Shown here piece after piece: positions 1-24,408 of a stretch of 32,393 bases of DNA (position 1 is its first letter; each line of letters begins with the position of its first letter). Location of the stretch: assembly GCA_029260055.1 (NCBI GenBank), contig JAJDDX010000283.1, positions 1 through 32,393 on the forward strand. The letters run 5' to 3'. The notes beneath the pieces were generated by a model. It was not told the DNA's origin. It saw only the letters and a list, made by a program, of their open reading frames with translations, and did no database searches. The DNA is from Phycisphaerae bacterium (lineage in GTDB: Bacteria; Planctomycetota; Phycisphaerae; UBA1845). The translations under genes and the position numbers were made by a program.

Positions 1-1
1 G

Positions 2-7475: not shown

Positions 7476-7515
7476 CCGCAGGTTCCAGGGGAAAACGCGC
7501 TCGGGGCCACTTGTC

Positions 7516-7544
7516 AGTGTATCAATTCGAGTCAGTCGATTCAA
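7516..7544 (-). promoter_or_regulatory. Predicted sigma-70-type promoter of the module 1 sigma/kinase operon
   Basis: On the minus strand TTGAAT (7539-7544) and TACACT (7516-7521) are separated by exactly 17 nt. The same layout with nearly the same hexamers occurs before the module 2 sigma gene. The predicted transcript start is about 30-35 nt before the ATG at 7475. Confidence 0.55.
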
Positions 7545-7906
7545 GTATGTCTTGACCCTGCCGTGCCGTAGTGACATGTCCGTGCCGCGATTCTGCGGGG
7601 TGAGGCGGGCTCCTGTCACTCGCACCGACCGGCACGAGCCGGCCCTCCCGGACTCCCGCACAGATTTCGGGTCACGCGGTTATTTGACGTGCTCTCTGGG
7701 TACACATGACGCATGCCTGCTGGTTGGTGAACGCAAGAGCCAGCCGCTGGAGCAGGTCACTCTCGGTGACGCGATGCGACGAACCGCTTAATCGGCGTCT
7801 ACGACGGGGCCACCGCTACCAGGCCCAAGCTCGGCGGATGACCGGTGTTGCCTTGGGTTGCTCGGGGTGGGCACTTAACAAATGTTGCGATGAGGAGTCA
7901 TCAAAG
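7545..7906. other. Divergent intergenic region between module 1 sigma gene and exported-protein gene
   Basis: About 360 nt without a convincing gene. It must hold the promoter of the rightward exported-protein gene. TTGACG near 7684 and TACACA near 7701 are too close together (11 nt) to form a standard promoter, so the site may be of a non-housekeeping type. The reading frame of the exported protein is open to 7706, but codon choice and the later ribosome site argue that this stretch is not translated. Confidence 0.4.
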
Positions 7907-10900
7907 ATGGAAAAAGCATCGTTTCACTTCGACACATGCGACTCGGCCGTCAACAGGGGCAGGCGCCGTTGGCTCTGGCGCACCGTGGCAATTGCGGTGG
8001 CCATGAATACGCTGGCCGCTGGCCACGTCCTACTTCAAGCGTGCGAATTCTCTGAGATCGAGAAGCTCGTCGCCGCGGATGCGCCCGGCGGCTCACTCGG
8101 GTCGTCTGTATGTATCGCTGGCGACATCGCGGTCGCCGGTGCTCAGGATGATGCTGGTGGCTCCGTGTACGTATACCGGCTAGCCGGAGAAGACTGGATC
8201 GAACAACAGAAACTGATGCCGAGCGACGGTGTCGGCGGCTCATTCGGAGCAGCGATCGCGTGCGATCGGGACACCATTGTCGTAGGTGCTCCAGGTGCAG
8301 ATGCAACATACGTCTTTCAGTTCGACGGTGTGGCTTGGACTGAAGAGCAGAAACTCACCGCCGGTGATGGTGTCGTTGGCGACATGTTCGGTCGGCGCGT
8401 CTCGTTGTGCAGTGATGTCGTGGTAGTAGGGGCCGATCTCGATGACGATGCCGGCACCTCATCGGGTTCGACCTACGTGTTCAGGTATGCCGGCGGAGTA
8501 TGGATCCCGGAGCAGAAGCTCACGGCCGCGGATGCGGCCGCTGGAGACCGTTTCGGGTTCGCCGTCGCCTGCGAGCTGAACACCGTCATCATCGGAGCGT
8601 TCGAGGACGAAGGCGGGACTGGTTCTGTTTACGCATTCGGTTTTGACGGCCTAGCGTGGGTGCAAGATCAGAAGCTAGTCGCGGGCAGTCCGGCGGCAGC
8701 ATTCGGTGTGGCCGTAGCGATCGATGGCGATGCGCTGGTCGTTGGTGCGACAACTGACGGGCCGTCTGGCTCCGCGTTTGTCTTTCGGCACGACGGTGCG
8801 CAGTGGATCGAAGAGCAGAAGCTCACAGCATGCGACGGCATGCCGGGAGACACATTCGGATTCGCCGTCGCTATCGAGGGCGACACGGCTGTCATCACCG
8901 CCTACTTGGATGACGATTTGGGTGGGAACGCGGGATCTGCGTACGTGTTCCACTTTGATGACGGAACGTGGGTGGAGAGGGCGAAGCTAACGGCGAGTGA
9001 TGCCGCCCCAGCCGCAGTCTTTGGCTACTGCGTTGATCTCGCCGCTGGTCATATGGCTGCGGGCGCTGTCGGCGCTGACGGTGGTTCGGGCGCAATGTAC
9101 CTGTTCGATCTAGCTTGTGACGCTGCGCCCGCCACTCCGACGATCTACTGGACCGAGACCAGCACGGCGCCGCGGGTTGTGCGGGACCGATGCTCCTCGG
9201 AGGTCCTGGTAGATACCGAGATCGACGCCAACCTGTCCCAGCCGCACGGTATCGCGCTTGATGTGGCCGGTGACCGCATGTACTTCACTGATGCCGCGGA
9301 CGCAGACAAGATCAAGAGCGCCAGACTTGACGGTAGCGACTTGCAGGAGATCCTGCTGTCACCGCCAACGACCGTGAATAACCCACGCGGGATTGGCCTG
9401 GATCTCAGTCAAAGCAAGATGTACTGGGTCGAGACACACGGCCCAAAAATCCGGCGAGCGAACCTGGATGGGACGGGCGTGGAGAAGCTGCTTGATACTG
9501 GGTTGTCTCAGAACGACTGGCTGGCGCTCGACCTGGTTAATCGTAAGTTCTACTGGTCGGATTCCGGCAACGGTACGATCAAGCGTGCGAGCATGGACGG
9601 TTCGATTCCCGTCACGCCCGAGGTCTGCTTGGGTGGGTTGGATCACCCGGCAGGCATCGCGATCGACCCGGTGCGCGGAAAACTGTATTGGGCAGAGGCC
9701 GGCGTCGATCTCATCAGGCGTGCCAACCTCGATTGCACAGGCGTCGAGGATCTGCTTACCACGCAGTTGGAGGTGCCCACGGAAGTTGGTCTTGCGTTGG
9801 ACGTGGATCGTGGCCGGGTGTACTGGACCGACGGACACACCGACGTGATCTGGAGTGCCGACTCCTGCGATGGATCAGACGTGCGGGAGGTCATCACGAC
9901 GGGTCCGTCGCCGCGTGGAATCGCGCTCGATCTGACCAACGTGGTGCCATCGGCTGACTGCGGCGACAACGGCGTGCCGGATTTCTGCGAAGGCGATGAC
10001 GACAACGACGGTGTGCCAAACGACTGCGACATTTGCTCCGGTACGGCACATGGCGAGTGCGTCAACGACGGCGGTTGCGCGTGCAGCGATCTTGACGGCT
10101 ACCCCAACTTCGACGACCTGAACGACTGCACGTCCGATTCGTGCGTTTGCGGTGTCGAGGCCCACGCGCCGGAGCCCGTGGATACGCCTTGCGGCGACCC
10201 GAGCAACACCGACTGTGACAACCCGAATACCTGCGACGGTGAGGGTATCTGCCTCGACAACTACGAGTCCGCTGGCACCATATGCGAAGATGGCTTCTTC
10301 TGTACCTCTGCGAGCGGGATGGCCGGTGCCCCGGATGCCTGCGATGGGGCGGGCGGCTGTCACGGCGTCCCGGCCAACTGCGACGATGGCCAGTTCTGTA
10401 CTGGCACTGAAACGTGTAACGAGGCCACGGATACCTGCGACTCCTCCAGTAATCCCTGCCCGGAGACGTCGTGCAACACATGCCAGGAGGAGACGGACAC
10501 CTGCTTCGACCCGCAAGGAACGCCGTGCGACGACGGTGCTCCCTGCACGGAACAAGATGACTGCGACGGCCTAGGGGCGTGCGCCGGCACATTCGCAGAT
10601 TCGGATCTCGACGACATATGTGACGCGGAGGACAACTGTCGTCTGTGGAATCCAGATCAGACGGATTGCGACGACAACTTGGTCGGCGATGTGTGCGACA
10701 TTGCCGACATTGGTACCCCTTTACCGGAGGATCGGTTCGACATCGAAGGGACAACCGTGTCCTGCACGTCGGACGACGATTGCCTTGTCGGCCTGAATCC
10801 GGAGTCGCAGGTGTACTGCATCCATCCACCGAACGATCCGGGTGGCCTGGGCACCTGCTATGTGCAGAAAAACCGCTATGTCTCGATCGATCCGAGCATT

Positions 10901-11536
10901 GAGACAAGTTGCGCGCCGACGGGCCGGCGCGTGACGCTCGATGTGAACGGCAACGGTGTTTACGAACCGGGAATCGATGTCGTGATCGGCTGGGTCGGTG
11001 AGCCGACCGAGCTGACGATCACGGGGCCGCCGGACATGCCCGAGCCGTCACCTCAGCTCCTCGCCCGGATCGTGTCCGAGGCTTCCGCCCATTACCGTGA
11101 CTGGACCCGTCAGCACAGCGGCCAGCCGTGGGTGGATGCGACCGTTCAGGTCGGTGACTGTGAGGTTTCACCGGACCACACCTACTTCGTGCAGGCGATC
11201 GAAGAGGGGGCCGACGAGACCGACGAGGCGAGCTACTCCGAACCCCTCGTTCTTAGGACGACGACATTGTTCGGCGACGTGACCGGCGGATCGGCCGGCA
11301 CCCCGCCGGACAACATCTGCAACTTCAAGGACATCGCGGCCGTCGTAAAAGCGTTCCAAGGCGACCAGGACGTGCCGAAGGTCTGGTGCGATCTTCAGGG
11401 CGGAACGCAGACGCCGGAGATCCCGGACTTCTCCGACATTAGCTTCGGAGACATCGGCCGCGCGGTGGGCTGCTTCCAGGGGGACCCTTACCCGTTCCCG
11501 GCGCCCTGCGACTGTCCGGGGCAAGCGTGTCCGTAA
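7907..11536 (+). CDS. Large exported FG-GAP / YWTD beta-propeller, Cys-rich, dockerin-like protein (module 1)
   Basis: A 1209-residue exported protein. I chose the ATG at 7907 because GAGGAG lies 9 nt upstream; the frame is open for 67 more codons. A basic stretch (GRRRW) and a hydrophobic segment at about 26-46 form a long signal peptide. Residues about 50-405 hold seven FG-GAP-like repeats (integrin alpha type; recurring QKL, FG and VYVF motifs). Residues 412-680 form a YWTD, LDL-receptor class B type propeller (YWTE, YFTD, YWVE, YWSD, YWAE, YWTD). Residues 682-896 are Asp/Cys-rich with probable calcium-binding and disulphide character. Residues 897-1209 are shared with the module 2 protein and end in two dockerin-like segments (GDVTG..NICNFKDI and FGDIGRAVGCF). 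It is divergent from the module 1 sigma/kinase operon. The ligand is unknown; a surface or extracellular binding role is inferred. Confidence 0.88.
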   Translation: MEKASFHFDTCDSAVNRGRRRWLWRTVAIAVAMNTLAAGHVLLQACEFSEIEKLVAADAPGGSLGSSVCIAGDIAVAGAQDDAGGSVYVYRLAGEDWIEQQKLMPSDGVGGSFGAAIACDRDTIVVGAPGADATYVFQFDGVAWTEEQKLTAGDGVVGDMFGRRVSLCSDVVVVGADLDDDAGTSSGSTYVFRYAGGVWIPEQKLTAADAAAGDRFGFAVACELNTVIIGAFEDEGGTGSVYAFGFDGLAWVQDQKLVAGSPAAAFGVAVAIDGDALVVGATTDGPSGSAFVFRHDGAQWIEEQKLTACDGMPGDTFGFAVAIEGDTAVITAYLDDDLGGNAGSAYVFHFDDGTWVERAKLTASDAAPAAVFGYCVDLAAGHMAAGAVGADGGSGAMYLFDLACDAAPATPTIYWTETSTAPRVVRDRCSSEVLVDTEIDANLSQPHGIALDVAGDRMYFTDAADADKIKSARLDGSDLQEILLSPPTTVNNPRGIGLDLSQSKMYWVETHGPKIRRANLDGTGVEKLLDTGLSQNDWLALDLVNRKFYWSDSGNGTIKRASMDGSIPVTPEVCLGGLDHPAGIAIDPVRGKLYWAEAGVDLIRRANLDCTGVEDLLTTQLEVPTEVGLALDVDRGRVYWTDGHTDVIWSADSCDGSDVREVITTGPSPRGIALDLTNVVPSADCGDNGVPDFCEGDDDNDGVPNDCDICSGTAHGECVNDGGCACSDLDGYPNFDDLNDCTSDSCVCGVEAHAPEPVDTPCGDPSNTDCDNPNTCDGEGICLDNYESAGTICEDGFFCTSASGMAGAPDACDGAGGCHGVPANCDDGQFCTGTETCNEATDTCDSSSNPCPETSCNTCQEETDTCFDPQGTPCDDGAPCTEQDDCDGLGACAGTFADSDLDDICDAEDNCRLWNPDQTDCDDNLVGDVCDIADIGTPLPEDRFDIEGTTVSCTSDDDCLVGLNPESQVYCIHPPNDPGGLGTCYVQKNRYVSIDPSIETSCAPTGRRVTLDVNGNGVYEPGIDVVIGWVGEPTELTITGPPDMPEPSPQLLARIVSEASAHYRDWTRQHSGQPWVDATVQVGDCEVSPDHTYFVQAIEEGADETDEASYSEPLVLRTTTLFGDVTGGSAGTPPDNICNFKDIAAVVKAFQGDQDVPKVWCDLQGGTQTPEIPDFSDISFGDIGRAVGCFQGDPYPFPAPCDCPGQACP
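10595..11536 (+). repeat. Long direct repeat, copy A: shared C-terminal module
   Basis: This 942-bp coding stretch matches 16774-17703 almost codon for codon; the only length difference I see is four extra residues (PPDM type) near 11027-11040. Long runs are identical in DNA, for example around 10790-10820 and 11400-11450. It encodes a Cys-containing block followed by two dockerin-like segments. Confidence 0.85.
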
Positions 11537-11558
11537 TCACCCTTCCTGCCGGCTGGCC

Positions 11559-11639: not shown

Positions 11640-13793
11640 TTACGGCAACTCGCCGAAATGGAGCGAGCGGTAATCAGGAAGCTCATCAGCATTGACTCGG
11701 TAGGCATCGCTGACGACTCGCGGGTGATCAACCTCACGCCCCTCGGCATCGATTATCCAGCTTACTGAGTTTTGACCACCAAGTGCCACAAGACCGACCG
11801 CGACATGTGACCCTTCGAAGAACGTACGAGTCGGCGGTGCCACCAACGAGTACGGCCGGATGGTTGCACATGCCTCCGCCGGCTGGAGAACCCGGTACCA
11901 GGCGACAGTTGACGGCATGTGCTGCGAGCCGGCGTTGAAGGGCTCGCGATGCCTGACACCCAACTCCGGCCGAAGCGTAAACACGACAACCGGCTTGTAA
12001 ACGCCCTGAGCCTCTCCGAGCGTGGCTTGCCCGGGCAACGTAGCAGTATCCCCTGCGAGAACCAACAGTCCAGCATCAGGCATCCAGTAGATTGCCGCGA
12101 TGGCCCCATCGTGCCACGCCTCGTAGAGAACTTGGCCCTCCAGGCTGTAGACGCGGACAGAGCGAAGCGAGTTGGACGCATGAGCGAAGACCGCAATAAT
12201 CTCCTGCCCAGGATTGCCGTGGAACACATCGGCAAGCAGCATCTCAGTGGTCGGGGCGAAATCAGCGCCCGTCGATCCTACGTTGGGCGGGAGTTCCCCC
12301 GTCAAGACTTCGCCGACCCACTCGGGATTGTCGTCATCGCGTCCAATATCGAAGACGTGGAGCCGGCCTCGCTCCGGTCCGTCAAAGCACAGCGTGAACC
12401 CAACTACTGCTAGAGGCCGACCATCGAACGCTGTGGGTGATCGCACGAGCTGACAAGCGGCAATCCCGTCCTTCTGTGGAGATTCCCAGGCGTAGAGCAC
12501 CCTCCCGGCGAATGAGACCACCTGTGCCCCTCGGTTCCCCTCCGTCACGACCGTCGTGTACGGGCGAAGGTTCGCGTACACGATCGACAGGCTCGTCGCG
12601 ATGGCTACGACCGCCACCATGACTACACAGCCACAGGCAGTCGAAGCGTACGGATGCCGCCTGACCCATCGCACCGCGCGCGCCCATGCCTTGGGTGGCC
12701 CAGCCTCAATCGGCTCGCGGTCCAGGAATCGGCGAACGTCACGGCCGAGGTCCGCGGCAGATTGGTAACGCTTCGCGCGGTCCTTCTCCAGTGCCGTCAG
12801 AGCGATCGTCTCGAGGTCGCCGCGGAGCTTCCGATCGACCGTGCTCGGGCGAGCCGGCGGCTGCTCGCAGACCACGCGCGCAGCGACATGGATTGCGGAG
12901 CGTCTTACATCGTACGGCAGGGTCCCGCAGACCAGCTCGTACAGCACGACGCCCAGCGAGTACACGTCACTTCGCGTATCAAGATCCAGCGGATCGGCGT
13001 GGCACTGCTCCGGGCTCATGTACTGAATCGTACCGAGAAGCTGCCCAACTTCCGTGTGCACGCTCGTAAGGGCGACATCGGAATCGGTCGCCCGGGCTAT
13101 GCCGAAATCGATGATCTTCACTTGCCCGTGCCCATCCACCAGGATGTTGCCGGGCTTCAGGTCACGGTGAATGATTCCTTTCTGGTGCCCGTAATGCACG
13201 GCGTCGCATACGTCGGCGAATAACTCAAGCCGATCGTTCGTTCCGAGGGACTCCTCATTGCAGTAGTCAATGAGCGTACGGGCGTCCGGGATGAACTCCA
13301 TCGCGAAGTACGGTAGCTCAGCTCCGGACGCATCCTCGAAAGTGCCGGCATCATGCACTTGAGCGATGTGAGGGTGTTGCAGCCGCGCGAGTATCTCGGC
13401 TTCGTGCTCGAATCGGCGCGGTGCTGACTTTGTGTGAACGCCTGCCGACATCACTTTCAGGGCGATCGTACGCCTGGGGCGATCTTGCTCGGCCTCGTAG
13501 ACCGTTCCCATTCCTCCCGACGCGATGCGGCGGGTGACGGTGTAGCGACCGACGCTTGTGCCGACCAACGATGGTCTCTCGATTGCCGGCGCCGTGTGGT
13601 CGGAAATCTGACTGCCCGGCTCCATGAAGTCACCGCGCGCCGAACCGTCATGCTCCAACAGTGAGAGGATCTCGGCGCGGAGGTCATCATCGCCGCCACA
13701 GGTCTCGGCCAGGAACCGTTCGCGCTCGCCGGCTGGTTGTGCCAAGGCTGCGTCAAAAAGCTCTTCCACGCGCTGCCACAAAGCGGAGTCCAT
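11640..13793 (-). CDS. Transmembrane Ser/Thr protein kinase with unfamiliar C-terminal domain (module 2 kinase)
   Basis: A 717-residue kinase. The frame is open to 13865, but the ATG at 13793 matches the family start (MDSALWQRVEELFDAAL) and lies 2 nt after the sigma stop, so the pair should be co-translated. Residues 1-60 are the conserved N-terminal helical domain. The kinase domain spans about 84-360: IASGGMGTVYEA loop, Lys113, HRDLKPGN with Asp211, DFG at 229-231. A membrane helix lies at about 385-406. The remaining 300 residues should lie outside the membrane; they are neither WD40 nor TPR but resemble the module 3 kinase tail, with conserved positions such as RVYSLEGQVLYEAWHDG and IYWMPDAGLLV. 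The DVFHGNPGQEIIAVF stretch recalls FG-GAP/VCBS repeats. A sensor role is inferred from its position. Confidence 0.93.
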   Translation of the reverse strand: MDSALWQRVEELFDAALAQPAGERERFLAETCGGDDDLRAEILSLLEHDGSARGDFMEPGSQISDHTAPAIERPSLVGTSVGRYTVTRRIASGGMGTVYEAEQDRPRRTIALKVMSAGVHTKSAPRRFEHEAEILARLQHPHIAQVHDAGTFEDASGAELPYFAMEFIPDARTLIDYCNEESLGTNDRLELFADVCDAVHYGHQKGIIHRDLKPGNILVDGHGQVKIIDFGIARATDSDVALTSVHTEVGQLLGTIQYMSPEQCHADPLDLDTRSDVYSLGVVLYELVCGTLPYDVRRSAIHVAARVVCEQPPARPSTVDRKLRGDLETIALTALEKDRAKRYQSAADLGRDVRRFLDREPIEAGPPKAWARAVRWVRRHPYASTACGCVVMVAVVAIATSLSIVYANLRPYTTVVTEGNRGAQVVSFAGRVLYAWESPQKDGIAACQLVRSPTAFDGRPLAVVGFTLCFDGPERGRLHVFDIGRDDDNPEWVGEVLTGELPPNVGSTGADFAPTTEMLLADVFHGNPGQEIIAVFAHASNSLRSVRVYSLEGQVLYEAWHDGAIAAIYWMPDAGLLVLAGDTATLPGQATLGEAQGVYKPVVVFTLRPELGVRHREPFNAGSQHMPSTVAWYRVLQPAEACATIRPYSLVAPPTRTFFEGSHVAVGLVALGGQNSVSWIIDAEGREVDHPRVVSDAYRVNADELPDYRSLHFGELP

Positions 13794-13795
13794 TT

Positions 13796-14386
13796 TCAAT
13801 CCCGTCGCGCGGCCGTGTCGCCCTTGGATAGCTCGCGGTGCAGCCATGCCTTGGCCACGCGCCAAGTCACATCGACACTGCGAGGCGAGATACCGAGCAC
13901 GGCTGCGGTTTCGTCGATCGTCAATCCGGCAAAGTAACGAAGCATGACGACCTCGGTCTTTCGGGCGTCGATCTTGCGAAGGCCCTCGAGCGCCTCGTCG
14001 ATCGCCAGAACTTCCGCTGGATCCTGCTCGAAGATCGGCGGGTTCTCTTCGACGTTGGCCCGCTGCCAGCCACCGCCACGTTTGAGGCGCTTCCTCTTAC
14101 GAGCGTCATCTATGCAGATTTGGCGCATGCCTTGAGCGGCCGCTACGAAAAAATGCCGGCGATTCGCCCAATGAGTGTCACGGTCCCCGAACAGGCGGAT
14201 GAAGACCTCGTGAACGAGCGCGGTGGGTTGGAGCGTGTGGCCAGGTCGCTCAGCCGCCATTTGGTGCTGGGCAAGTGCACGCAGTTCGCTGTAGACCGCA
14301 CTCCAGAGCTGCTCCCTGGCGGATGCGTCGCCCTCCTCGATCGCGCCGAGGAGTTGGGTAATGGACTCTCCGGGTGTCGTTTCCAT
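13796..14386 (-). CDS. ECF-type RNA polymerase sigma factor, Sigma70_ECF/TIGR02999-like (module 2 sigma)
   Basis: A 196-residue paralogue of the module 1 sigma factor. Region 2 contains YSELRALAQHQMAAE, TLQPTALVHEVFIRLF and IDDARKRKRLKRGG; region 4 contains the helix-turn-helix DETAAVLGISPRSVDVTWR followed by AWLHRELSKGD. I use the ATG at 14386, with GAGG about 10 nt upstream, rather than the 23-codon longer frame, because the longer form would place the predicted -10 and -35 boxes inside the gene. The recognition helix differs from that of the other two sigma factors (PRSVDVTWR against RRAVQGDWR and RRTVQVDWR), so target promoters may differ. It is co-transcribed with the kinase that follows, and no anti-sigma factor is present. 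Confidence 0.92.
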   Translation of the reverse strand: METTPGESITQLLGAIEEGDASAREQLWSAVYSELRALAQHQMAAERPGHTLQPTALVHEVFIRLFGDRDTHWANRRHFFVAAAQGMRQICIDDARKRKRLKRGGGWQRANVEENPPIFEQDPAEVLAIDEALEGLRKIDARKTEVVMLRYFAGLTIDETAAVLGISPRSVDVTWRVAKAWLHRELSKGDTAARRD

Positions 14387-14426
14387 GGAGCGATAGCCTC
14401 TGAGTGTGCGTTCCACCAAGTCACTT

Positions 14427-14455
14427 AGTGTACGACTTTGGCGAATTCGACTCAA
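14427..14455 (-). promoter_or_regulatory. Predicted sigma-70-type promoter of the module 2 sigma/kinase operon
   Basis: Minus-strand TTGAGT (14450-14455) and TACACT (14427-14432) are 17 nt apart, matching the module 1 promoter in both hexamers and spacing and in the TCGA that follows the -35 box. The transcript start would be about 35 nt before the ATG. Confidence 0.55.
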
Positions 14456-14574
14456 GCTTCAACTGACTCTGCGATCGGCGAAAACCTGCGCCCTGTCATG
14501 CGGGCCGACGCTTGGACGGTGAAAGGCAGCCCAACGCATGCTGCCGCTGATGTGGATTCGTATGGAGAGAAGTC

Positions 14575-17500
14575 ATGCAGCGTGGAACTACCAGCACGGT
14601 CCTTCTGGCAATCCTGATCTCGTGTGGCGTGGCCACAGCGTGCCGCGCGAGTACGCTCTATGTTGACGCAAACGCAGCGGGCGCGAACGACGGCTCGAGT
14701 TGGTGTGATGCTTTCGTGGCGTTGCAGGATGCACTAGCCGTCGCGGCGGCGGCGGACGGGTCCATCAACGAGATACGTGTCGCCCAGGGAGTCTACAAGC
14801 CGGACGGTGGCGTCGGTCAGACGCCGGGGGACCGCGCGGCGACGTTCCACCTGCTGGACGGCGTAGCACTCAAGGGCGGCTATGCAGGCTGCGGTGCGAC
14901 CGATCCCGATGAACGCGATCCTGCCCAATTCGTCAGTACGTTGAGCGGTGACCTGAACGGAGATGACGGCCCCGGACCATTCGACGGTAACTCCGAAAAT
15001 GCCTTCCATGTCGTTACCGGGAGCGAAAGGTATGACACCGCTATCATCGACGGGTTTACCATCACGGCGGGGAACGCACACGGTGCGTTCCCGGACAACG
15101 AAGGTGGCGGCATGCTCAACAACGTGGGAAACCCGACAGTCACCGGCTGTACCTTCGCCGACAACACTGCCGTGAACGGAGCGGGGATGATGAACAGAGG
15201 CGGAAGCGTGCCAACGATCACTGCTTCGACGTTCGTCGGCAACTCGGCGGATAACGACGGTGGTGGGATCTACAACGCCAGCAGCGACCCGATAGTGAAC
15301 AACTGCGCGTTCCTCGGAAACAAGGCTACGGAAGGAGGGACGTCGTACGGCGGAGGAATGGCCAATTACACGGCGAGCCCTTCCGTGACCGACTGCGCGT
15401 TCGTTGGGAACTCCGCCGGCACCTCGGGTGGCGGGATGTCCAATCGCGAGCGCAGTTACCCGACGGTCAGGAGCTGTACCTTCAAAGGCAACACGGCCTC
15501 AAGTGGTGGCGGCGGCATGTGCAACCTCGACCTCAGTAGCCCGGCCGTAATCAACTGCATCTTCACGGGAAACGAGGGAGGAACGAGCGGCGGCGGCGGG
15601 ATGTGGAACGGGATTGACAGCAGCCCGAGGGTTACCAACTGTCTCTTCACCGGGAATGAGTCGTTGGATGAAAGTGGTGGTGGAGGTGGAATGCGGAACG
15701 AGGTCAGGAGCCACCCGATCGTGACCAACTGTACGTTCTACGCGAACCTAGCCAGCATCGGTGGAGGCATGCGCAGCAATGATGACTGCAATCCGACGGT
15801 TGAAAACTGCGTCTTCTGGCAGAACGTGCCCGATCAGATTGATGACCTAGCCGCTTCGGTTACTACGGCGACCTACAGTTGCATCCAGGGGGGCTGGCCC
15901 GGGCTAGGCAACATCGACGAGGATCCTCTATTCGTCGATCCTATCGGCCCGGACGGCATCCCCGGCACTGAAGACGACGACCTCCGGCTTTCCCCGGGAT
16001 CGCCCTGCATCGACGTGGGTGATAACACCGTAGTCGATGCTTGTCTCCCCGACCTCGACAGGAACTGGCGCATCGTGGATGGCGATGGCGACGAGATTCC
16101 GGTTGTGGACATGGGGCCGTACGAGTTCGGCAGCACCCCATTAGAAGAGTGCGACGACGGCGCACTCTGCACCGTAGATTCGTGCGATCCTGCCATCGGC
16201 TGTGTGTACGAGGCGCTGCCGGCCGGCACGGCCTGCGGTGACCCAACTGACACCGATTGCGACAACCCAGATACGTGCGACGGTTTCGGGCATTGCGTTC
16301 AGAATTACGAGCCGGACGGCTTCGCCTGCGGTGACCCAAACGACACCGATTGCGACAATCCGGACACGTGCGACGGGACGGGGCAGTGCCTTCAGAACAT
16401 GGAGCCTGACGGTGCAGCGTGCGGTGATCCGGCCGATACCGATTGTGACCACCCGGATACCTGTAACGGCGCCGGGGCCTGCCTGCCGAACTTCGAGCCT
16501 GCGGGCACGAGTTGCGGCGACCCGGCCACGGGCGAGTGTGATGGCGCCGATAGCTGCGATGGATTGGGGAGCTGCCTGGCCAACAACGAGCCCGTCGGCA
16601 CGCCGTGTGGCGATCCCACGGACACCGATTGCGACAACCCGGATACGTGCGACGTGGCTGGCACATGCTTGCCCAACTACGAGCCCCCGGGGACACCGTG
16701 CAACGACGGCGAGCCCTGCACCCTAGACGACGAATGCCAAGGCGACACTCCGGGCACGTGCGCCGGTGAGTACGTGGACGCCGACGTTGACGCGGTGTGC
16801 GATCCGCTGGACAACTGCCGGCTGTACAACCCGGATCAGGCGGATTGCGATGAGAACGACATCGGCGACGTGTGTGACATCGCGGACCACGGGAGGCCCA
16901 GGGCTGAAGGCCGGTTCGATCTCGCCGGGACGATCGTGAGCTGTACGTCGGACGATGATTGCCTTGTTGGCCTGAATCCGGAGTCGCAGGTGTACTGCGT
17001 GCATCCGCCGAACGACCCGGAGGGCGAGGGCATCTGCTACATCCAGAAGAATCGCTACATCTCGATCGACCCGACGCCTGTGGCGGCGTGCGCTCTAACG
17101 GCACGGCGCGTGACGCTGGATGTCAACGGCAACGGCGTATACGAACCCGGAATCGATGTCGTGATCGGCTGGGTCGGTGAACCGATGGAGCTCGCGATCA
17201 CCGGCCCCGAGCCATCGCCTCAACTCCTCGCCCGAATCGTGGCCGAGGCTGCTGCCCATTACCGCGATTGGACTCGCCAGCACAACGGCGAGCCGTGGGT
17301 CGATCCGACCGTCCAGGTCGGTGACTGTGAGGTGTCGCCCGGGCACACGTACTTCGTTCAGGCCATCGAACAGGGTGCCGACCTAGCCGACGAAGCCAGT
17401 TATTCGGAGGTCGTGGTTCTGAAAACCACAACGCTGTTCGGCGATGTCACCGGCGGGGCGGCCGGTACACCGCCAGACAACATTTGCAATTTCAAAGACA

Positions 17501-17703
17501 TCACGGCGGTCGTGCAGGCGTTCCAGGGGGACCAGCGGATACCGAAGGTCTGGTGCGATCTGCAAGGCGGAACGCAGACGCCTGAGATTCCGGACTTCTC
17601 CAACATTAGCTTCGGCGACATCGGTCTTGCGGTAGGTTGCTTCCAGGGTGAAGTCTATCCGTTCCCGCAGCCGTGTGAATGTCCGGGGCAGGCATGCCCG
17701 TGA
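14575..17703 (+). CDS. Exported parallel beta-helix, Cys-rich, dockerin-like protein (module 2)
   Basis: A 1042-residue exported protein with a clear signal peptide (residues 1-25: TVLLAILISCGVATACRAS) and a ribosome site GGAGAG just before the ATG. Residues about 26-500 form a right-handed parallel beta-helix of the kind seen in polymorphic outer-membrane and pectate-lyase-like proteins: repeated GGGM, CTF and GN motifs about 28-30 residues apart (for example GCTFADN, NCAFLGN, NCLFTGN). Residues 524-733 are Cys/Asp-rich and include five exact-length 31-residue units. Residues 734-1042 are nearly the same as the C-terminus of the module 1 protein, ending in two dockerin-like segments. It is divergent from the module 2 sigma gene, with 188 nt between the starts. 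I see no catalytic motif; surface display or binding is more likely than enzyme activity, but this is an inference. Confidence 0.88.
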   Translation: MQRGTTSTVLLAILISCGVATACRASTLYVDANAAGANDGSSWCDAFVALQDALAVAAAADGSINEIRVAQGVYKPDGGVGQTPGDRAATFHLLDGVALKGGYAGCGATDPDERDPAQFVSTLSGDLNGDDGPGPFDGNSENAFHVVTGSERYDTAIIDGFTITAGNAHGAFPDNEGGGMLNNVGNPTVTGCTFADNTAVNGAGMMNRGGSVPTITASTFVGNSADNDGGGIYNASSDPIVNNCAFLGNKATEGGTSYGGGMANYTASPSVTDCAFVGNSAGTSGGGMSNRERSYPTVRSCTFKGNTASSGGGGMCNLDLSSPAVINCIFTGNEGGTSGGGGMWNGIDSSPRVTNCLFTGNESLDESGGGGGMRNEVRSHPIVTNCTFYANLASIGGGMRSNDDCNPTVENCVFWQNVPDQIDDLAASVTTATYSCIQGGWPGLGNIDEDPLFVDPIGPDGIPGTEDDDLRLSPGSPCIDVGDNTVVDACLPDLDRNWRIVDGDGDEIPVVDMGPYEFGSTPLEECDDGALCTVDSCDPAIGCVYEALPAGTACGDPTDTDCDNPDTCDGFGHCVQNYEPDGFACGDPNDTDCDNPDTCDGTGQCLQNMEPDGAACGDPADTDCDHPDTCNGAGACLPNFEPAGTSCGDPATGECDGADSCDGLGSCLANNEPVGTPCGDPTDTDCDNPDTCDVAGTCLPNYEPPGTPCNDGEPCTLDDECQGDTPGTCAGEYVDADVDAVCDPLDNCRLYNPDQADCDENDIGDVCDIADHGRPRAEGRFDLAGTIVSCTSDDDCLVGLNPESQVYCVHPPNDPEGEGICYIQKNRYISIDPTPVAACALTARRVTLDVNGNGVYEPGIDVVIGWVGEPMELAITGPEPSPQLLARIVAEAAAHYRDWTRQHNGEPWVDPTVQVGDCEVSPGHTYFVQAIEQGADLADEASYSEVVVLKTTTLFGDVTGGAAGTPPDNICNFKDITAVVQAFQGDQRIPKVWCDLQGGTQTPEIPDFSNISFGDIGLAVGCFQGEVYPFPQPCECPGQACP
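16234..16698 (+). repeat. Five tandem 93-bp coding repeats (31-residue Cys/Asp-rich units)
   Basis: Units begin at 16234, 16327, 16420, 16513 and 16606, each exactly 93 bp. The consensus is close to CGDPTDTDCDNPDTCDG, then G.CL.N.EP.G. Four cysteines per unit suggest disulphide-stabilised modules, and the Asp spacing suggests calcium binding. A single similar unit is found in the module 1 protein near 10189. The fourth unit is the most divergent. Confidence 0.9.
16774..17703 (+). repeat. Long direct repeat, copy B: shared C-terminal module
   Basis: The second copy (930 bp) of the module at 10595-11536. The dockerin-like segments read GDVTGGAAGTPPDNICNFKD and FGDIGLAVGCFQGE. Confidence 0.85.
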
Positions 17704-17721
17704 TGTAGGCGCTCCAGGGGG

Positions 17722-17754
17722 CGGTGGCGCGTGTGGCTACGATCCGCGCCGCCG
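17722..17754. terminator. Possible terminator between convergent genes
   Basis: A 10-bp stem with one G-T pair (CGGTGGCGCG and CGCGCCGCCG) and a 13-nt loop follows the stop at 17703 and precedes the convergent kinase stop at 17827. There is no T-run. Confidence 0.35.
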
Positions 17755-17826
17755 GCTCCGCTCGGTGTCTTCGCGAAGCTCGATCGGGCCTAGTTCATAT
17801 ACGAGCGCGCGGTGTGGCGCCCCATG

Positions 17827-20049
17827 TCATGGCGACGGCTTGGTATGTTCGATAGTCGATGTCGGCTGTCTCGCCGCGGCATTTGGCGGTGGCAAATCGC
17901 CCAGGCGAAACGTATCCGGCGGGGGGAGTTCGGCATCGCTAAGCCAGTACGTATCCGTAACGGTGCGGGTGCCGCGCACGTTGTTCCCATGCTGATCGAT
18001 GACCCAACCGACAACTCCGTTGCCGTCGCGTTCTCGCACAACTACTTCGACATGAGAACCGGGCGCCCAGTGGCGATTCGTGGGCACGACGAGGTCGTAC
18101 AAGGACATCACTGGATATGTATCAAGTGGCAACACGAAGCGGTACCATTCCGCGCCTCCGCTCGTTCCGGGCTCCTGGTGATTCAGGAATTCTCGCGAAC
18201 GGTCATCCTGGCTCAATCGAAGAGCGAATACCACATTAGGCCTGTGGGGGCTTGCAATCGGTGTTCGGGCCCGGTGAGCAGGTGCGTTCGTGATTGCTGC
18301 CGCAACCAGCAGGCGCGCTTGCGGCATCCAGTACAGATGCCCCACGCTCCCATCGTGCCAGGTTTCGAATCGGACCCGTCCCCGGAGGTCATATACTCGA
18401 ATCGACCGCTGTGAGTATGCATGCGAGAAGACCACAACGACCTCGTCGCCGGGGCACTCGGCAAAGACATCGGCCACGACAAACGCCCGGTCCGGATTGA
18501 ATCCGGCCCCGTCCTTGGCGCCCGCACCGCCCGGTAGATCCTCATCTAGAACCTCGGAACACCACAGCGGATCGTCCAAACCACGACTGGTGTCGAACGC
18601 ACATAGCTTCCCGCGATGAGGTCCGTAGTATTTTGAGCCGAACCCCACGATCGCGAGCAGCCTACCGCCGGACTCGCGAGGCTGCCTCACGAGATGTGCG
18701 AACGCAATGCTATTTTTCTCATCGGACCCCCACGCATGCAAGGTCTTGCCGCTGCGGGCAAGAAGCCGTGCCCATCGATTCGCGTCGGCTACTTCCACGC
18801 GGGAAGGGCGCGCGTCGAGAAAACGCACCGCCGAGACCGTCCCAACTGCGATACAAGCGGCAATGAACATGCAGCCTGCCGCCGTTGTTACGTAGGGGTG
18901 TCGGCGCACCCACCGTGTCACCCGCGTTGTCACGGTCGGCGACTTGGCGTCGATGGGCTCGCCGCTCAAGTAAGCCCTCAAGTCACGCGCTAGGTCGGCG
19001 GCGGACTGATACCGTCTCGCTCGATCCCGTTCCATGGCACGGAGTAGGATGAGCTCAAGGTCACCCTTCAGTTTCTTCCTTATCGTGCCGGGGCGGACCG
19101 GATGGGCCTCGCAAACCGTTCGGATCGCGGAGTGGATACTCGACTCAGATACCTCGTACGGCAGCCTTCGGCAAAGCAGTTCGTATAGCATGATGCCGAG
19201 CGAGTACACGTCGGTGCGAGTGTCGAGATTAAGAGGGTCGGCTTCGCACTGCTCGGGGCTCATGTACTGGAGAGTTCCAACTAGTTGCCCGACGTCCGTC
19301 TGGAGGGTGGTGACGGCGATGTCGGAATCGGTAATGCGCGCGACGCCAAAGTCTATGATCTTGACGTGGCCGTCAGAGTCAACCAGGACATTCCCCGGCT
19401 TCAAGTCGCGGTGGATGATGCCCTTTTGATGTCCATGGTGCACGGCATCGCAGGCCTGAACGAACAAGGACACCCTCGCGCGAATGTCGATCTTTCTTTC
19501 CTCGACGTAACTCGTGATCGGAAGTGCACCGGGAACATGCTCCATGGCGAAGTATGGTACCGCGACCCCTGGCGCCTTCGGATGCTCGAACGTACCGGCT
19601 TCATAGACCTGCGCGATATTGGCGTGCCGCAAATGCCCGAGGATTAGCGACTCATGCTCGAAGTGCCGGAGCGCGTAGCGTGACGTGATCCCGGACCGGA
19701 CCGCCTTAAGGGCGACACGTCGCCTTGGGTTTTCCTGCTCCGCTTCGTAGACGTTCCCCATCCCGCCGGTGGCGATGACGCCCTTGATCACAAACGAACC
19801 AACGCGCGTGCCGATCAGTGTTTCGGCGCCCATCGTCGCCTCTAGAGCGTTATCCTCGGCTCGCGTCTCAGGTGGCCGCATGAAGTTGTCGGCAGCGCGG
19901 TTATCGTGCTCCATTAGAGACAGGAGCTCTGCCTGCAAGTCGAGATCGCCATCACAGGCCTCAACCACGGCAGCCCTCCGCTGCCCCGCCGGCAGGGTCG
20001 TGAGTTCATCGAAGAGCTGACGGATGCGATGCGACTGATCTGAACTCAT
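17827..20049 (-). CDS. Transmembrane Ser/Thr protein kinase with unfamiliar C-terminal domain (module 3 kinase)
   Basis: A 740-residue kinase whose ATG overlaps the stop of the sigma gene by 4 nt (ATGA), the tightest coupling of the three modules. Residues 1-60 are the shared N-terminal domain (HRIRQLFDELTTLPAGQR). The kinase domain spans about 85-360: IATGGMGNVYEA loop, Lys115, HRDLKPGN with Asp215, DFG at 233-235, SPEQ in the activation segment. A membrane helix lies at about 388-408. Residues about 415-715 are a putative extracytoplasmic domain matching that of the module 2 kinase (IRVYDLRGRVRFETWHDG, LYWMPQARLLV, WYRFVLPLD, LGDLPPP), followed by a short disordered Pro/Thr-rich tail that the module 2 kinase lacks. 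All catalytic residues are present. Control of the partner sigma factor is inferred from gene order. Confidence 0.93.
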   Translation of the reverse strand: MSSDQSHRIRQLFDELTTLPAGQRRAAVVEACDGDLDLQAELLSLMEHDNRAADNFMRPPETRAEDNALEATMGAETLIGTRVGSFVIKGVIATGGMGNVYEAEQENPRRRVALKAVRSGITSRYALRHFEHESLILGHLRHANIAQVYEAGTFEHPKAPGVAVPYFAMEHVPGALPITSYVEERKIDIRARVSLFVQACDAVHHGHQKGIIHRDLKPGNVLVDSDGHVKIIDFGVARITDSDIAVTTLQTDVGQLVGTLQYMSPEQCEADPLNLDTRTDVYSLGIMLYELLCRRLPYEVSESSIHSAIRTVCEAHPVRPGTIRKKLKGDLELILLRAMERDRARRYQSAADLARDLRAYLSGEPIDAKSPTVTTRVTRWVRRHPYVTTAAGCMFIAACIAVGTVSAVRFLDARPSRVEVADANRWARLLARSGKTLHAWGSDEKNSIAFAHLVRQPRESGGRLLAIVGFGSKYYGPHRGKLCAFDTSRGLDDPLWCSEVLDEDLPGGAGAKDGAGFNPDRAFVVADVFAECPGDEVVVVFSHAYSQRSIRVYDLRGRVRFETWHDGSVGHLYWMPQARLLVAAAITNAPAHRARTPIASPHRPNVVFALRLSQDDRSREFLNHQEPGTSGGAEWYRFVLPLDTYPVMSLYDLVVPTNRHWAPGSHVEVVVRERDGNGVVGWVIDQHGNNVRGTRTVTDTYWLSDAELPPPDTFRLGDLPPPNAAARQPTSTIEHTKPSP

Positions 20050-20642
20050 GGATCCGCTGACACGAAACGTGTATCACCCTTTGACAGTTCCCGGTGAAGC
20101 CAAGCGCGCGCGAGTCGCCAATCGACTTGGACGGTCCGGCGGGAAACACCCAACACCGTCGCCACCTCACCTTCAGTCAGCCCGGCGAAATAGCGGAGTA
20201 GGACCACTTCGGCTTGGCGCGCATCTTCCTGCTCCAGCCGGCCCAGGGCGTCGCTTACCGCCAGTAACTCCACCGGATCCTGATCGGACACGGCAAGGTC
20301 ATCGACTGTCTCCGCACGTCTGTGGTTGCCTCCACGCTTGAGGCGGTTCCTCCTACGTACGTCATCTACTCGGATTTGGCGCATCGCTCGTGCGGCCGCT
20401 CCAAAGAAATGCCGCCGACTCGTCCAATCCGTGGGGTGTTCGCCGAACAGGCGGAAGAACGCTTCGTGGACAAGAACCGTGGGCTGAAGCGTCTGCCCCG
20501 CATGCGCCGCGCCAAGCTGCCGTTGAGCCAGCCGGCGCAGTTCTCCGTAGATCACAGTCCAGAGCTGTTGCCTTGCGCCTTCATCGCCATCGCTCGCCGC
20601 CGCCAGGAGGCGAGTCACAGGTACGTCAACAGGTCCTTTCAT
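20046..20642 (-). CDS. ECF-type RNA polymerase sigma factor, Sigma70_ECF/TIGR02999-like (module 3 sigma)
   Basis: A 198-residue ECF sigma factor, paralogous to the other two. It starts MKGPVDVPVTRLL with GAGG 6 nt before the ATG at 20642, and there is no longer frame to confuse the start. Region 2 contains YGELRRLAQRQLGAAH, TLQPTVLVHEAFFRLF and VDDVRRRNRLKRGG; region 4 contains GEVATVLGVSRRTVQVDWR, then AWLHRELSKGD. The conserved Ala in TLQPTALVHE is Val here, and DDARKRKRLKR is changed to DDVRRRNRLKR, so it is the most divergent of the three. The stop codon overlaps the kinase start. It lies divergent from the kelch protein gene, with 264 nt between starts. Confidence 0.92.
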   Translation of the reverse strand: MKGPVDVPVTRLLAAASDGDEGARQQLWTVIYGELRRLAQRQLGAAHAGQTLQPTVLVHEAFFRLFGEHPTDWTSRRHFFGAAARAMRQIRVDDVRRRNRLKRGGNHRRAETVDDLAVSDQDPVELLAVSDALGRLEQEDARQAEVVLLRYFAGLTEGEVATVLGVSRRTVQVDWRLARAWLHRELSKGDTRFVSADP

Positions 20643-20668
20643 GCCACCCTCATGTCCTACTTATCTTC

Positions 20669-20685
20669 TCGACTCAATAGTAGCA
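20669..20685 (-). promoter_or_regulatory. Possible promoter element of the module 3 sigma/kinase operon
   Basis: On the minus strand an extended -10 type sequence, TGCTACTAT (20677-20685), runs into TTGAGTCGA (20669-20677). The second element is the same TTGARTCGA motif that holds the -35 box of modules 1 and 2, but there is no matching -10 box 17 nt downstream here. Confidence 0.3.
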
Positions 20686-20906
20686 GATTGTGTCCTGTGG
20701 GTGCACTTGTTTTCCAGGACTGGGTCGCCGAGACCGGGTGCCATGCCCAGTGCGCTGCCGGTTGCTGCGGTGCGAGCCCGCCCTGCGCCGTGGATAGGGC
20801 CATGGTCTTTCTCAAACACCCTGCGCTTCGCAAGGCCAGAAGGCGTACGTGTTCCCGGTAGATTCTCGGTTTCGACTTACGACTTCAGAAAAGAAGGAGA
20901 GAAAAG

Positions 20907-21995
20907 ATGCAGCTTTCGCGCCTGACAATTCTCGTTTCGGCTTTCAGCACCCTTGCATGTTGCCTGCATGGCTCGACATCCCGGGCCGCGTGCCAGGATA
21001 GTTGGTCTCCTGAGCCACCGTTAAACGAGGCCAGGCACTTCCTTGGCGCCTGCACGGCGCCGTGCGGTGATATTTATGCGATCGGGGGCGGGGCAGGTAT
21101 GACGCGGGTCGCCACTGTGGAGCGGCTCGCCTACGATGGCGAGAATTACGCTGCCTCGTGGGAGACACTGCCCGATATGCCTACCGCTCGGACGCAGCCT
21201 TCCGTGGTCTGTACAAACGGCTTCATCTATGTGATCGGCGGAAACGACGGTGCCGCATCCGATTCGGTGGATCGGTACGATCTCTGGACGGAGACCTGGA
21301 GCGCGATCGAACCCCTCAACCTGGGGCGCAGCAACGCTGGCGCGACGATCGATCCGTACGGGCGAATCTGGGTCATCGGCGGAAACGTCGGCGGCTACAC
21401 TACGACCGTCGAAATCTACGACCCCGCGAGACCTTCGGACGGCTGGGTGTTCGGGCCGGACCTAGTGACCCCGCGCGGTTACGCTGGCGCTTTCACTGAT
21501 AGCCTCGGTCGGATCTGGGCGATCGGCGGGAGTACTACCGGACCATCACATACCTCGTCGATCGAGCGAATCGACTCCTGCGGTGGCGGCTGGGAGGTTC
21601 TTGGCCTCGAGGTCCCCGGTGGCGTTTCGCAGACCGACTACTCCGTCCTTGGCGAAGACCAGAAGGCCTACATCGTGGGCGGGTGGATGCCGGGAGGCAG
21701 CAACCGTGTCCTCCAGCTCGACTCTGTCACAGAACGGTGGTTGGAGTGCACGCCGATCAGCCAGTCTGTCAACGGGCCAGCCCTCACGCTCGGCGCCAAC
21801 GGACGCATCTTTAGGATTGCCGGGCACACCGGGAGCAGCACATCGCAGTCGATGGTGGAGTCTCTTGACACAAGGTCTCCGCCGGTTGGCGCTGTACCGG
21901 CAGTCTCCGATTGGGGCGTCGCAATCATGGCCCTTCTGGTCCTCGGCGCTGCGACTGTTTCGTTCCGCCGTCTAAGGACGACGGCAATCGCCTAG
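20907..21995 (+). CDS. Exported kelch-repeat protein with IPTL-CTERM-like sorting tail (module 3)
   Basis: A 362-residue exported protein. The ribosome site AAGGAGAG lies just before the ATG. Residues 1-28 form a signal peptide (LTILVSAFSTLACC, cleavage probably near SRAA). Residues about 35-320 contain about six kelch repeats, each with a diglycine (YAIGGG, YVIGGN, WVIGGN, WAIGGS, YIVGGW, FRIAGH), which would close a six-bladed beta-propeller. The tail (residues about 328-362) has VPAVSDWGVAIMALLVLG, then a hydrophobic helix and FRRLR, closely resembling the IPTL-CTERM signal used for sorting by an archaeo/exosortase-type system; no sortase gene is in the window. It occupies the same position relative to its sigma/kinase operon as the large proteins in modules 1 and 2, but lacks their dockerin-like block. 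Confidence 0.9.
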   Translation: MQLSRLTILVSAFSTLACCLHGSTSRAACQDSWSPEPPLNEARHFLGACTAPCGDIYAIGGGAGMTRVATVERLAYDGENYAASWETLPDMPTARTQPSVVCTNGFIYVIGGNDGAASDSVDRYDLWTETWSAIEPLNLGRSNAGATIDPYGRIWVIGGNVGGYTTTVEIYDPARPSDGWVFGPDLVTPRGYAGAFTDSLGRIWAIGGSTTGPSHTSSIERIDSCGGGWEVLGLEVPGGVSQTDYSVLGEDQKAYIVGGWMPGGSNRVLQLDSVTERWLECTPISQSVNGPALTLGANGRIFRIAGHTGSSTSQSMVESLDTRSPPVGAVPAVSDWGVAIMALLVLGAATVSFRRLRTTAIA

Positions 21996-22233: not shown

Positions 22234-22455
22234 TTAGCACTGACGCGCGAGCCGCTCGGCGAGCCCCAGCACGGCCTGCAGGTCGGCTTCGTCCAAGCCT
22301 ACGCAGACCGCGATCAGGTCATGGAGTAGGGGGGCACTCCTGGCGCAAGTGCCACCGGGAGTGTCACCGGGGTCCGAGCCAGGTGCCAGATCGGCGTTTT
22401 CACTAGCGCCAGAGCGGTTCCGTGCAGGCGGAGCGCCTCCCTTACAAGGAGGAAG
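22234..22455 (-). pseudogene. Reading-frame remnant, possible C-terminal tail of a recombinase or other protein
   Basis: A minus-strand frame of 73 codons without a start, ending in TAA at 22234-22236. Its last part, LLHDLIAVCVGLDEADLQAV followed by LGLAERLARQC, has coding-like codon choice and helix-like pattern, like the end of a real protein. It emerges from the antisense strand of the tRNA fragment, where an in-frame TGA (22456-22458) separates it from AIQDLNL. Integrase genes of elements that use tRNA genes often end beside or across the attachment site, so this may be a severed integrase tail. The identification is a guess. Confidence 0.3.
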
Positions 22456-22482
22456 TCACAGGTTCAAGTCCTGTATCGCCCA
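22431..22482 (+). other. Putative attachment site: 3' fragment of a tRNA-Val(UAC) gene
   Basis: The 52 nt fold as the 3' part of a tRNA: anticodon stem CCTCC/GGAGG, loop CTTACAA with anticodon TAC (22443-22445), variable AAGTC, T stem ACAGG/CCTGT with loop TTCAAGT, acceptor strand ATCGCCC and discriminator A. The expected 5' acceptor strand GGGCGAT and most of the D arm are absent upstream, so it cannot be a working tRNA gene. Such displaced 3' ends mark the far end (attR) of elements integrated into tRNA genes. From its orientation the element would lie to the left. Confidence 0.75.
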
Positions 22483-22527: not shown

Positions 22528-24408
22528 TTACCCCCCTGTCCGGATGCGCTCGGTGGCTTCGAGGGCGGCCTTCGCATCAGCGTGCCCCGGGCTCAGCACG
22601 AGGGCCTGTCGGAACGCGGCGATGGCCTCATCGTAACGCCTTGCCGTCCCGAGCGTCTTTCCCAAATCAACACGAATGTTCGCGACGTTGGGCGCGAGTT
22701 TGACGGCTGACTCATAGGCTTCGATGGCCTCATCGAGATCGCCCCGCCGCCGAAGCGCGAGCCCTAAGTTTGCATAGACACCCGCGTGGTTCACCTCGAA
22801 ATCGATGGCCTTCCTGAAATGATGGATCGCCTCATCCACACGACCGAGGTTGAGCAGCAAAACGGCCATGTTGCTGTGCGTGGCGGCAAGGTCCGGCTTC
22901 AACGCCAAGGCGGCATTGTAGTGCTCCAAGGCTTCGTCTCTCTTCTGCTGCCGCGTGAGCACAATGGCGAGGTTGTTGTGCGCGTCCGGATCGTTCGGAT
23001 GAAGCCGAAGCGTTTCGCGATTGTGCTTGGCCGCGGCCTCCAACTCGCCGCGAGCCTCCAGAATTTTCGCCAAATTGTGGTGTGCAAGCCACGCGTCCGG
23101 ATTCCGCGCGAGCGTATCGCGCCACAGCGTCTCGATATCTCTATAGATCATCCCCTGTCGCGCCGTTAGAACGACAAGGACGAGCAAAACCACGCCCTTC
23201 GCCAGCGCGGGCACGACGGGTGCCTTGGACGCCTCTTTGGCGGCCGCTTTCCTGCCGCGGCCGCGCGCCGGAGCCGGTGACCTGCTAGCGAAGCGATCGA
23301 GCGCTTTCGATAGCAGAGCCGCGATCAGTACGATCGGCCCGATGCTCGCGAGATACTGAAAGTGATCCGCCACGAACGAATATCGGAACGGATAGACGTC
23401 AATGAAGCCCAGCGCCGGAACCAGCGTGCCGCCGAAGAATAGCGCGGCGGTAAGCGGGCCGCGCCCGATCCGGCGTTGTAGTACGCGTAGTACCGTGAGC
23501 AAAACGACTACCGCGGCAGGGAACAGGTACTGCCACCAAACCGCCTGACTGATGTCCCAGCGCGGATAGACGAACATCAGCGGGAAAGGCAAGACGAGCT
23601 TGCCCAGGTAGAACCACGCCGCCCGCCCGGCGACGAGGGTTCGTTCGATGCCCGTCAACGTCCAATCGCGACCCTCGGCGCCCACGTGGTGGCGCTCCAA
23701 CCAGACGGTCAGTGCGGCTGTCGCAAGCCCGATCGCGAGCATTGGCACGATCGCGAGCACTTCGCGCCTTGGCAGCGTCCCGCGCTTCCACCAGTAGATC
23801 AGAAGAATGGCAGCCGGCAGCGAACAAGTGACCGTCTTGCTCAGCAGGGCGCATATGAACAGGACGAGTGCTAGCCAATACATGCCGAACCGACGAGGTC
23901 CGCCTCGTTCGCCTGCGTCGATTGGCGCGAAACGAAGAAACGCCGTCAAGCTGGCGAGGTAGAAGACTCCGGAGAGCACGTTCTTGCGTTCCGTGATCCA
24001 CGCGACCGATTCGACATGCACGGGGTGCAGCGCGAAGATCGCGGCTGCCAGCCACGCGCCGGGCACCGACAACTTGCGAAGTAGGAACCAAAGAAGCACG
24101 GCGCTAAGCGCATGGAGAACGACGTTGATGAAGTGATAGCCTGCCGGCGAGGCGCCCCACGTTTGGTACTCCAACCAGAAGGTCGTGAACACCATCGGGT
24201 AGTATTGCGGCGTGGCCCCGATTTCGAACCAGATTCGCCCAAGCCCGTCGAAGGACCGTAGCGTGTCGTTCTGTGTGACGTATGCGTCGTCGTCCCAGAT
24301 GAACCCGCCGCGCATGGCAGTGCTGTAGGCGACCACGCACGCCAGGCCGATCAACCCGATGCCCAGTAGCGTTCGTGTCGAGGGTTTGCTCATGTGGGGT
24401 GTCGCCAC
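22528..24408 (-). CDS. Multi-spanning membrane protein with C-terminal TPRs, TMTC-like
   Basis: A 626-residue protein. Residues 1-400 contain about ten membrane helices. The first extracytoplasmic loop carries GGFIWDDDAYVTQN, with the acidic pair typical of GT-C type glycosyltransferase folds, and HPVHVESVAWITERKNVLSG follows near residues 120-140. Residues about 430-620 are six TPRs (NPDAWLAHHNLAKILEARGE type). This layout matches bacterial relatives of eukaryotic TMTC O-mannosyltransferases, so a lipid-linked sugar transferase is possible, but substrate and activity are unknown. I use the GTG at 24408, which has GAGG at a good distance; an ATG five codons later (24393) has no ribosome site. 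It follows the CAP gene by 58 nt on the same strand and is likely in that operon. It is the first gene to the right of the tRNA scar. Confidence 0.85.
   Translation of the reverse strand: MATPHMSKPSTRTLLGIGLIGLACVVAYSTAMRGGFIWDDDAYVTQNDTLRSFDGLGRIWFEIGATPQYYPMVFTTFWLEYQTWGASPAGYHFINVVLHALSAVLLWFLLRKLSVPGAWLAAAIFALHPVHVESVAWITERKNVLSGVFYLASLTAFLRFAPIDAGERGGPRRFGMYWLALVLFICALLSKTVTCSLPAAILLIYWWKRGTLPRREVLAIVPMLAIGLATAALTVWLERHHVGAEGRDWTLTGIERTLVAGRAAWFYLGKLVLPFPLMFVYPRWDISQAVWWQYLFPAAVVVLLTVLRVLQRRIGRGPLTAALFFGGTLVPALGFIDVYPFRYSFVADHFQYLASIGPIVLIAALLSKALDRFASRSPAPARGRGRKAAAKEASKAPVVPALAKGVVLLVLVVLTARQGMIYRDIETLWRDTLARNPDAWLAHHNLAKILEARGELEAAAKHNRETLRLHPNDPDAHNNLAIVLTRQQKRDEALEHYNAALALKPDLAATHSNMAVLLLNLGRVDEAIHHFRKAIDFEVNHAGVYANLGLALRRRGDLDEAIEAYESAVKLAPNVANIRVDLGKTLGTARRYDEAIAAFRQALVLSPGHADAKAALEATERIRTGG

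Follow-up and report, generated by a model that had tools for sequence, protein, structure and literature searches.

Islands that occupy tRNA genes and are accompanied by displaced fragments of those genes are well known (PMC4383910). In one described system, that of the Myxococcus phage Mx8 (IntP/IntX; Tojo 1996), attP lies inside the integrase gene according to the passages that treat this phage in two sources (PMC4383910, PMC6070905), and in the corresponding passage of the second, a review, integration replaces the 3' end of int and the altered integrase is still active with modified specificity (PMC6070905). Integrases whose genes are split on integration are known from archaea, and a review calls them exclusively archaeal (PMC8371274). 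The locus described here lies in a 32,393-nt stretch of DNA, hereafter the window, which is an entire contig (C205) of a Phycisphaerae bacterium genome (GCA_029260055.1). We conclude, with a probability of about 0.87, that a tRNA fragment in the window is the attR of a ~42.9-kb island at tRNA-Val(UAC), and that the attP of this island lies inside its int gene so that integration severs the int tail.

The initial annotation had proposed that positions 22431-22482 are the 52-nt 3' part of a tRNA-Val(UAC) gene lacking its 5' strand, and had predicted an intact tRNA-Val with the same 3' end and a tyrosine recombinase nearby. The coordinates proved exact. Over its 52 nt the segment (GAGCGCCTCCCTTACAAGGAGGAAGTCACAGGTTCAAGTCCTGTATCGCCCA) agrees at 50 positions with the 3' end of an intact tRNA-Val(UAC) located on the minus strand of contig C92 (C92:20508-20581). 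The sole differences, at 22458 and 22474, are both halves of one T-stem pair; the fragment has A-T there, the intact tRNA G-C. The predicted gene and recombinase are thus both on C92, one compensated T-stem pair apart from expectation, and the missing 5' strand is borne out by the lack of a D-arm and by the scores considered below. Scanning the whole genome (7.63 Mb, 500 contigs) for the 34-nt tRNA-Val core with up to three mismatches located it at two sites only, the window fragment and the intact gene on C92, and the reversed 34-nt pattern, used as a control, had no match in the 7.6 Mb. Elsewhere in the same genome a 124-nt tRNA-like sequence (L005, G000:C194:9238-9361) matches Rfam with 42.9 bits and is not called by ARAGORN.

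A tyrosine integrase gene (481 aa, Phage_integrase domain) overlaps the intact tRNA-Val in antisense orientation and ends within it as ...WAMQDLNLRLPPCKGGALAN, and its last codons are the reverse complement of the 3' half of this tRNA; the catalytic region (HALRTTF...HYQDF) is present in this retained protein. The low end of C92, as its reverse complement, is identical to window positions 1-63 at 58 of 63 nt. All five mismatches have G on C92 (C92:1-63) and T in the window, likely a systematic contig-end error. The same two contig ends carry the halves of a split hmaC gene in matching orientation, with positions 3-283 of the PADLOC HmaC profile covered on C92 and positions 264-940 in the window. 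The remaining two HmaC matches of the genome, on C405 and C266, are at other places and do not represent these halves. C92 and the window probably adjoin within one island. After joining, the intact tRNA-Val and the fragment point the same way and span ~42.9 kb (20,507 + 22,482 - 63). The overlap and the split hmaC therefore put the island on the left-hand side of the fragment with three sigma/kinase modules inside it, which agrees with the initial annotation, where the island had been placed on that side and the DUF499 gene (i.e., hmaC) and all three modules had been regarded as cargo; all are enclosed between the tRNA-Val on C92 and the fragment. Base composition does not set the island apart from its flank, G+C being 0.61-0.64 on either side out to 30 kb.

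Beyond int, C92 encodes a replication-type HTH protein, a DnaB-like helicase, HmaA, HmaB and the first part of HmaC, and the three genes that together define an Hma defence system (hmaA, hmaB and hmaC) are all present, hmaC being split over the two contigs. Three units of similar make-up occupy positions 2748-21995 of the window. Every unit pairs an ECF sigma factor with a Ser/Thr kinase and has a large repeat protein that is transcribed divergently (Table 1). A C-terminal stretch, GDVTGG..DNICNFKDI..V..FQGD, is common to two of the repeat proteins. The closest relatives of the module 3 kinase in the genome are the other two module kinases (48 and 51%), with values of up to 46% elsewhere in the genome. 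Because kinases of this kind are frequent in the lineage, with 23 strong matches in the present genome, the array is best regarded as cargo by position rather than as a proven mover.

Table 1. Features of the window and their coordinates.
Feature	Position	Strand	Basis
Overlap with low end of C92; putative left continuation of island	1..63	.	58/63 identical
HmaC (DUF499 ATPase), C-terminal part; N-terminal part at C92:3-1325(-)	2..2014	+	PADLOC HmaC profile
Ser/Thr kinase with WD40 repeats, module 1	2748..6881	-	Pfam
ECF-type sigma factor, module 1	6885..7661	-	ORF; family inferred by similarity to third sigma factor
FG-GAP/LDL-receptor-b repeat protein, apparently exported	7706..11536	+	Pfam
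Ser/Thr kinase, module 2	11640..13865	-	Pfam
ECF-type sigma factor, module 2	13796..14455	-	ORF; family inferred by similarity
Large repeat protein, apparently exported	14575..17703	+	ORF
Ser/Thr kinase, module 3	17827..20049	-	ORF; homologous to modules 1 and 2 at 51% and 48%
ECF sigma factor, module 3	20046..20642	-	Pfam Sigma70_ECF 5.5e-56
Kelch-repeat protein, weak IPTL-CTERM signal; last gene before integrase tail	20907..21995	+	Pfam
Predicted orphan C-terminal tail of island integrase, 65 codons	22237..22431	-	In-frame translation; homologous tails in G031 and seven other genomes; class-wide profile search
Displaced 3' part of tRNA-Val(UAC); putative attR core, island right end	22431..22482	+	50/52 identity to C92 tRNA-Val; A-T allele as in five other genera
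Predicted crossover stretch, 27 nt identical in both copies, centred on anticodon arm CCTCC-CTTACAA-GGAGG	22431..22457	+	tRNA/fragment comparison
TMTC-like TPR protein; predicted first chromosomal gene right of island	22528..24408	-	Pfam TPR; position beyond attR

On the minus strand, the frame of int passes through the fragment and stays open for 65 further codons (22431-22237), ending LHDLIAVCVGLDEADLQAVLGLAERLARQC. Judged from their frame and translation, these 65 codons are the predicted severed C-terminus of the island's own integrase. The tail in the window is of a divergent subtype without the AWP motif, and a single-sequence search with it returned mostly chance matches besides one in genome G031, so a ten-row profile was needed. 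G031 (Planctomycetota bacterium CSMAG_2662) provides a second complete case: an integrase 53% identical to that on C92 overlaps an intact tRNA-Val, and another contig carries a displaced tRNA-Val fragment with the same breakpoint as in the window and a homologous in-frame tail. In G401, which has the same integrase and an intact tRNA-Val, there was no clean second tRNA-Val fragment and only a decayed orphan-tail remnant elsewhere, and the viral contigs searched yielded no useful relative.

In the mechanism we propose, the tyrosine recombinase would recombine the attP of the element with the anticodon-arm region of the tRNA-Val(UAC) gene, whereupon the 3' copy supplied by the island would restore the tRNA-Val (now on C92) and the native 3' part would end up displaced at the right end. 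While the element is circular, int would read antisense through the tRNA core and end with the 65-codon tail, and a full-length integrase of ~543 aa in total would be made. The integration crossover would sever this tail and leave it at the far end of the island beside the displaced tRNA fragment, and int in its integrated form would gain a short new end from antisense tRNA codons to give the 481-aa protein. As the retained integrase keeps the catalytic region, the enzyme would be altered rather than destroyed.

The T-stem difference indicates which of the two copies is likely to be native. Matching tRNA-Val genes were found in five other genera of the family (60 relatives searched), and since all five carry the A-T pair of the fragment, the fragment would most simply be the original chromosomal 3' end, the G-C allele of the intact gene having come with the island. 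This distribution of alleles would place the crossover within 22431-22457, around the anticodon arm and short of the first T-stem difference (22458). Translated antisense in the integrase frame, the codon concerned is TGA with the native A-T allele and CGA with the island G-C allele, and the full-length int-tail ORF is open only with the G-C allele owing to this TGA in the native fragment. The compensated change therefore leaves the tRNA paired and the integrase frame open, and it may have been selected for keeping that frame open. No empty site was found among the relatives compared, all of other genera, and the neighbourhoods of tRNA-Val are not conserved between genera, the five relatives with matching tRNA-Val having unrelated neighbours. 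The TMTC gene to the right of the fragment is multi-copy in every genome, and synteny of the right flank can therefore not be read from it.

To place this locus among others, 13 further integrase/tRNA loci were examined with up to 60 kb of flank. Seven of the 13 have a displaced tRNA fragment on the integrase side (28-54 nt; tRNA-Gly, His, Asn and SeC), and at all seven the int frame is open for 57-94 codons past the fragment and ends in a common motif. In related genomes, tails accompany nine additional tRNA fragments of this displaced kind (Val, Gly, His, Asn and SeC), and most tails end roughly as DxxLxxVIxAWPxLPxAVRAGIxAMVKA. Among 30 related int ORFs, 24 overlap an intact tRNA in antisense orientation. 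With the ten-tail profile, matches at E <= 0.01 were obtained in 259 of the 397 genomes of the class, a count based on at most 15 scored candidates per genome and including weak matches without individual inspection. Antisense T-arm sequence lies upstream of 49 of 69 distinct tails against 0.12 expected, where the 360 nt upstream of the motif end were searched, the expectation was taken from the rest of the same strand and the 69 tails include the profile-defining cases. Between closely related tail pairs dN/dS is 0.23-0.65, on short sequences with few substitutions, and constraint as protein is therefore indicated.

At several loci the catalytic domain, flagged with a profile of the catalytic core only, and the tail are joined in one ORF, each of these ORFs being N-terminally truncated or on a short contig. 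In one such ORF (L169, G019:C250) a tRNA-Lys-like 3' core lies between catalytic domain and tail, the arrangement predicted for attP. The long open frames at L141, L164, L165, L166 and L168 were rejected as full-length integrases on inspection. The in-frame tails and the single-ORF loci together therefore argue that attP is inside int and that integration swaps the C-terminus of the integrase. In genome G125 a second displaced fragment has its tail in another frame, which would be expected were the tRNA read in another frame by the integrase of a second island; two tRNA-Gly fragments lie there (G125:C18, L112-L114) beside one tRNA-Gly, both displaced and each with a tail in a frame of its own, probably two accreted islands. 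At G303:C1 (L105-L107) a displaced tRNA-Gly fragment occurs together with a 42-nt exact copy, inverted, inside the island. The genome of the window itself has further matches to the integrase or to the tail on C28, C34, C266, C282 and C77 (L170, L171, L058, L059 and L060), several beside tRNA genes; C266 also carries a diverged HmaC match, and integrase-like ORFs lie on both sides of a tRNA-Gly(UCC) at L048/L049 (G000:C433:158-2467).

It is conceivable that the tails are small genes in their own right, located at the right ends of islands (e.g., recombination directionality factors) and in frame by coincidence, as most of them stand alone as open frames of 80-150 codons and could have start codons of their own. 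However, in each of the ten cases checked a single open frame led straight from the antisense tRNA core into the tail, this frame was that of int in nine of ten (eight with a known int frame and the window), and several loci hold the catalytic domain and tail in a single ORF, and we consider coincidence unlikely. The fragment could also be the old end of a different, decayed island and the integrase on C92 could belong to a newer, unrelated one. Accretion at one tRNA does occur in the class, as the two fragments at one tRNA-Gly in G125 illustrate, but only one displaced fragment is present in this genome, and the contig overlap and split hmaC tie both ends together, leaving this history quite improbable.

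Both ARAGORN and Rfam (RF00005) report a whole tRNA at 22412-22482, which raises the question of whether this is a real, if unusual, tRNA-Val gene. Its Rfam score, however, is 34.7 bits compared with 74.6 bits for the intact tRNA-Val, the D-arm is absent, the predicted fold is not a cloverleaf, and resemblance to tRNA-Val begins abruptly at 22431, the breakpoint also found in G031. A full tRNA is called because GAGCGGT upstream of the fragment is able to pair by chance with the acceptor strand. The automatic call is misleading, the sequence is a fragment without a 5' part, and we find a functional gene at this position scarcely credible. The same can be said of a chance or random duplication of a tRNA piece without involvement of integration: other routes to tRNA fragments exist, but this fragment lies at the end of an element, the int of this element overlaps the intact copy, the tail is in frame, and the same layout recurs in nine other cases.

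If the fragment is the attR of an island with attP inside int, as we favor, the tail most likely affects the direction or stability of the integrase, by analogy with Mx8, and its loss may switch the enzyme between an integrating state and one of maintenance or excision. Islands in these bacteria appear to change their integrase whenever they insert. Whether C-terminus switching is a general regulatory device of Planctomycetota islands, in which a conserved helical tail, present in the circular form only, would set the direction or stability of the integrase until integration removes it, is a proposal we advance tentatively, at slightly worse than even odds; if true, directionality would be written into the DNA junction itself. 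The separation of a conserved C-terminus on every integration makes direction control of tRNA-targeting integrases testable. The boundaries fixed in this way for the present island enclose a defence system together with a signalling array of three modules, and an orphan integrase tail beside a tRNA fragment offers a simple marker of island ends in fragmented Planctomycetota genomes.

The island resembles the tDNA islands catalogued by Islander (PMC4383910) in having an intact tDNA, an adjacent tyrosine integrase that here overlaps it, a displaced 3' fragment at the other end in the same orientation (after joining of the contigs) and an anticodon-type crossover subsite. Islander ends lie 2-200 kb apart on one replicon; here the ~42.9 kb are spread over two contigs, linked through the 63-nt overlap and the split hmaC, and the C-terminus of the integrase also marks the second end. 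As described for Mx8 in the passages cited above (PMC4383910, PMC6070905), attP would be inside the int coding sequence and the 3' end of int replaced on integration, and the int frame does continue across the attachment core into element DNA here, with single-ORF examples elsewhere. In comparison with what those passages report for the phage, many islands, several tRNA targets and a whole class are concerned here, and the severed part is a conserved C-terminal motif. We found no description of such class-wide use in bacterial islands with a conserved severed C-terminus in the open-licence papers searched, and this aspect appears to be new. With the archaeal suicidal (SSV-type) integrases (PMC8371274) the locus shares an attachment site inside int and a gene split into parts at opposite ends of the element. 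In that type the catalytic domain is separated on integration and excision needs another integrase, whereas the 481-aa protein retains the catalytic tyrosine and the loss is confined to a short C-terminal tail. Integration-dependent immunity of mycobacteriophage BPs (PMC4557955) is similar in that an attachment site lies in a regulatory gene and protein length depends on the integration state; in BPs the gene encodes the phage repressor, whereas here it encodes the integrase itself.
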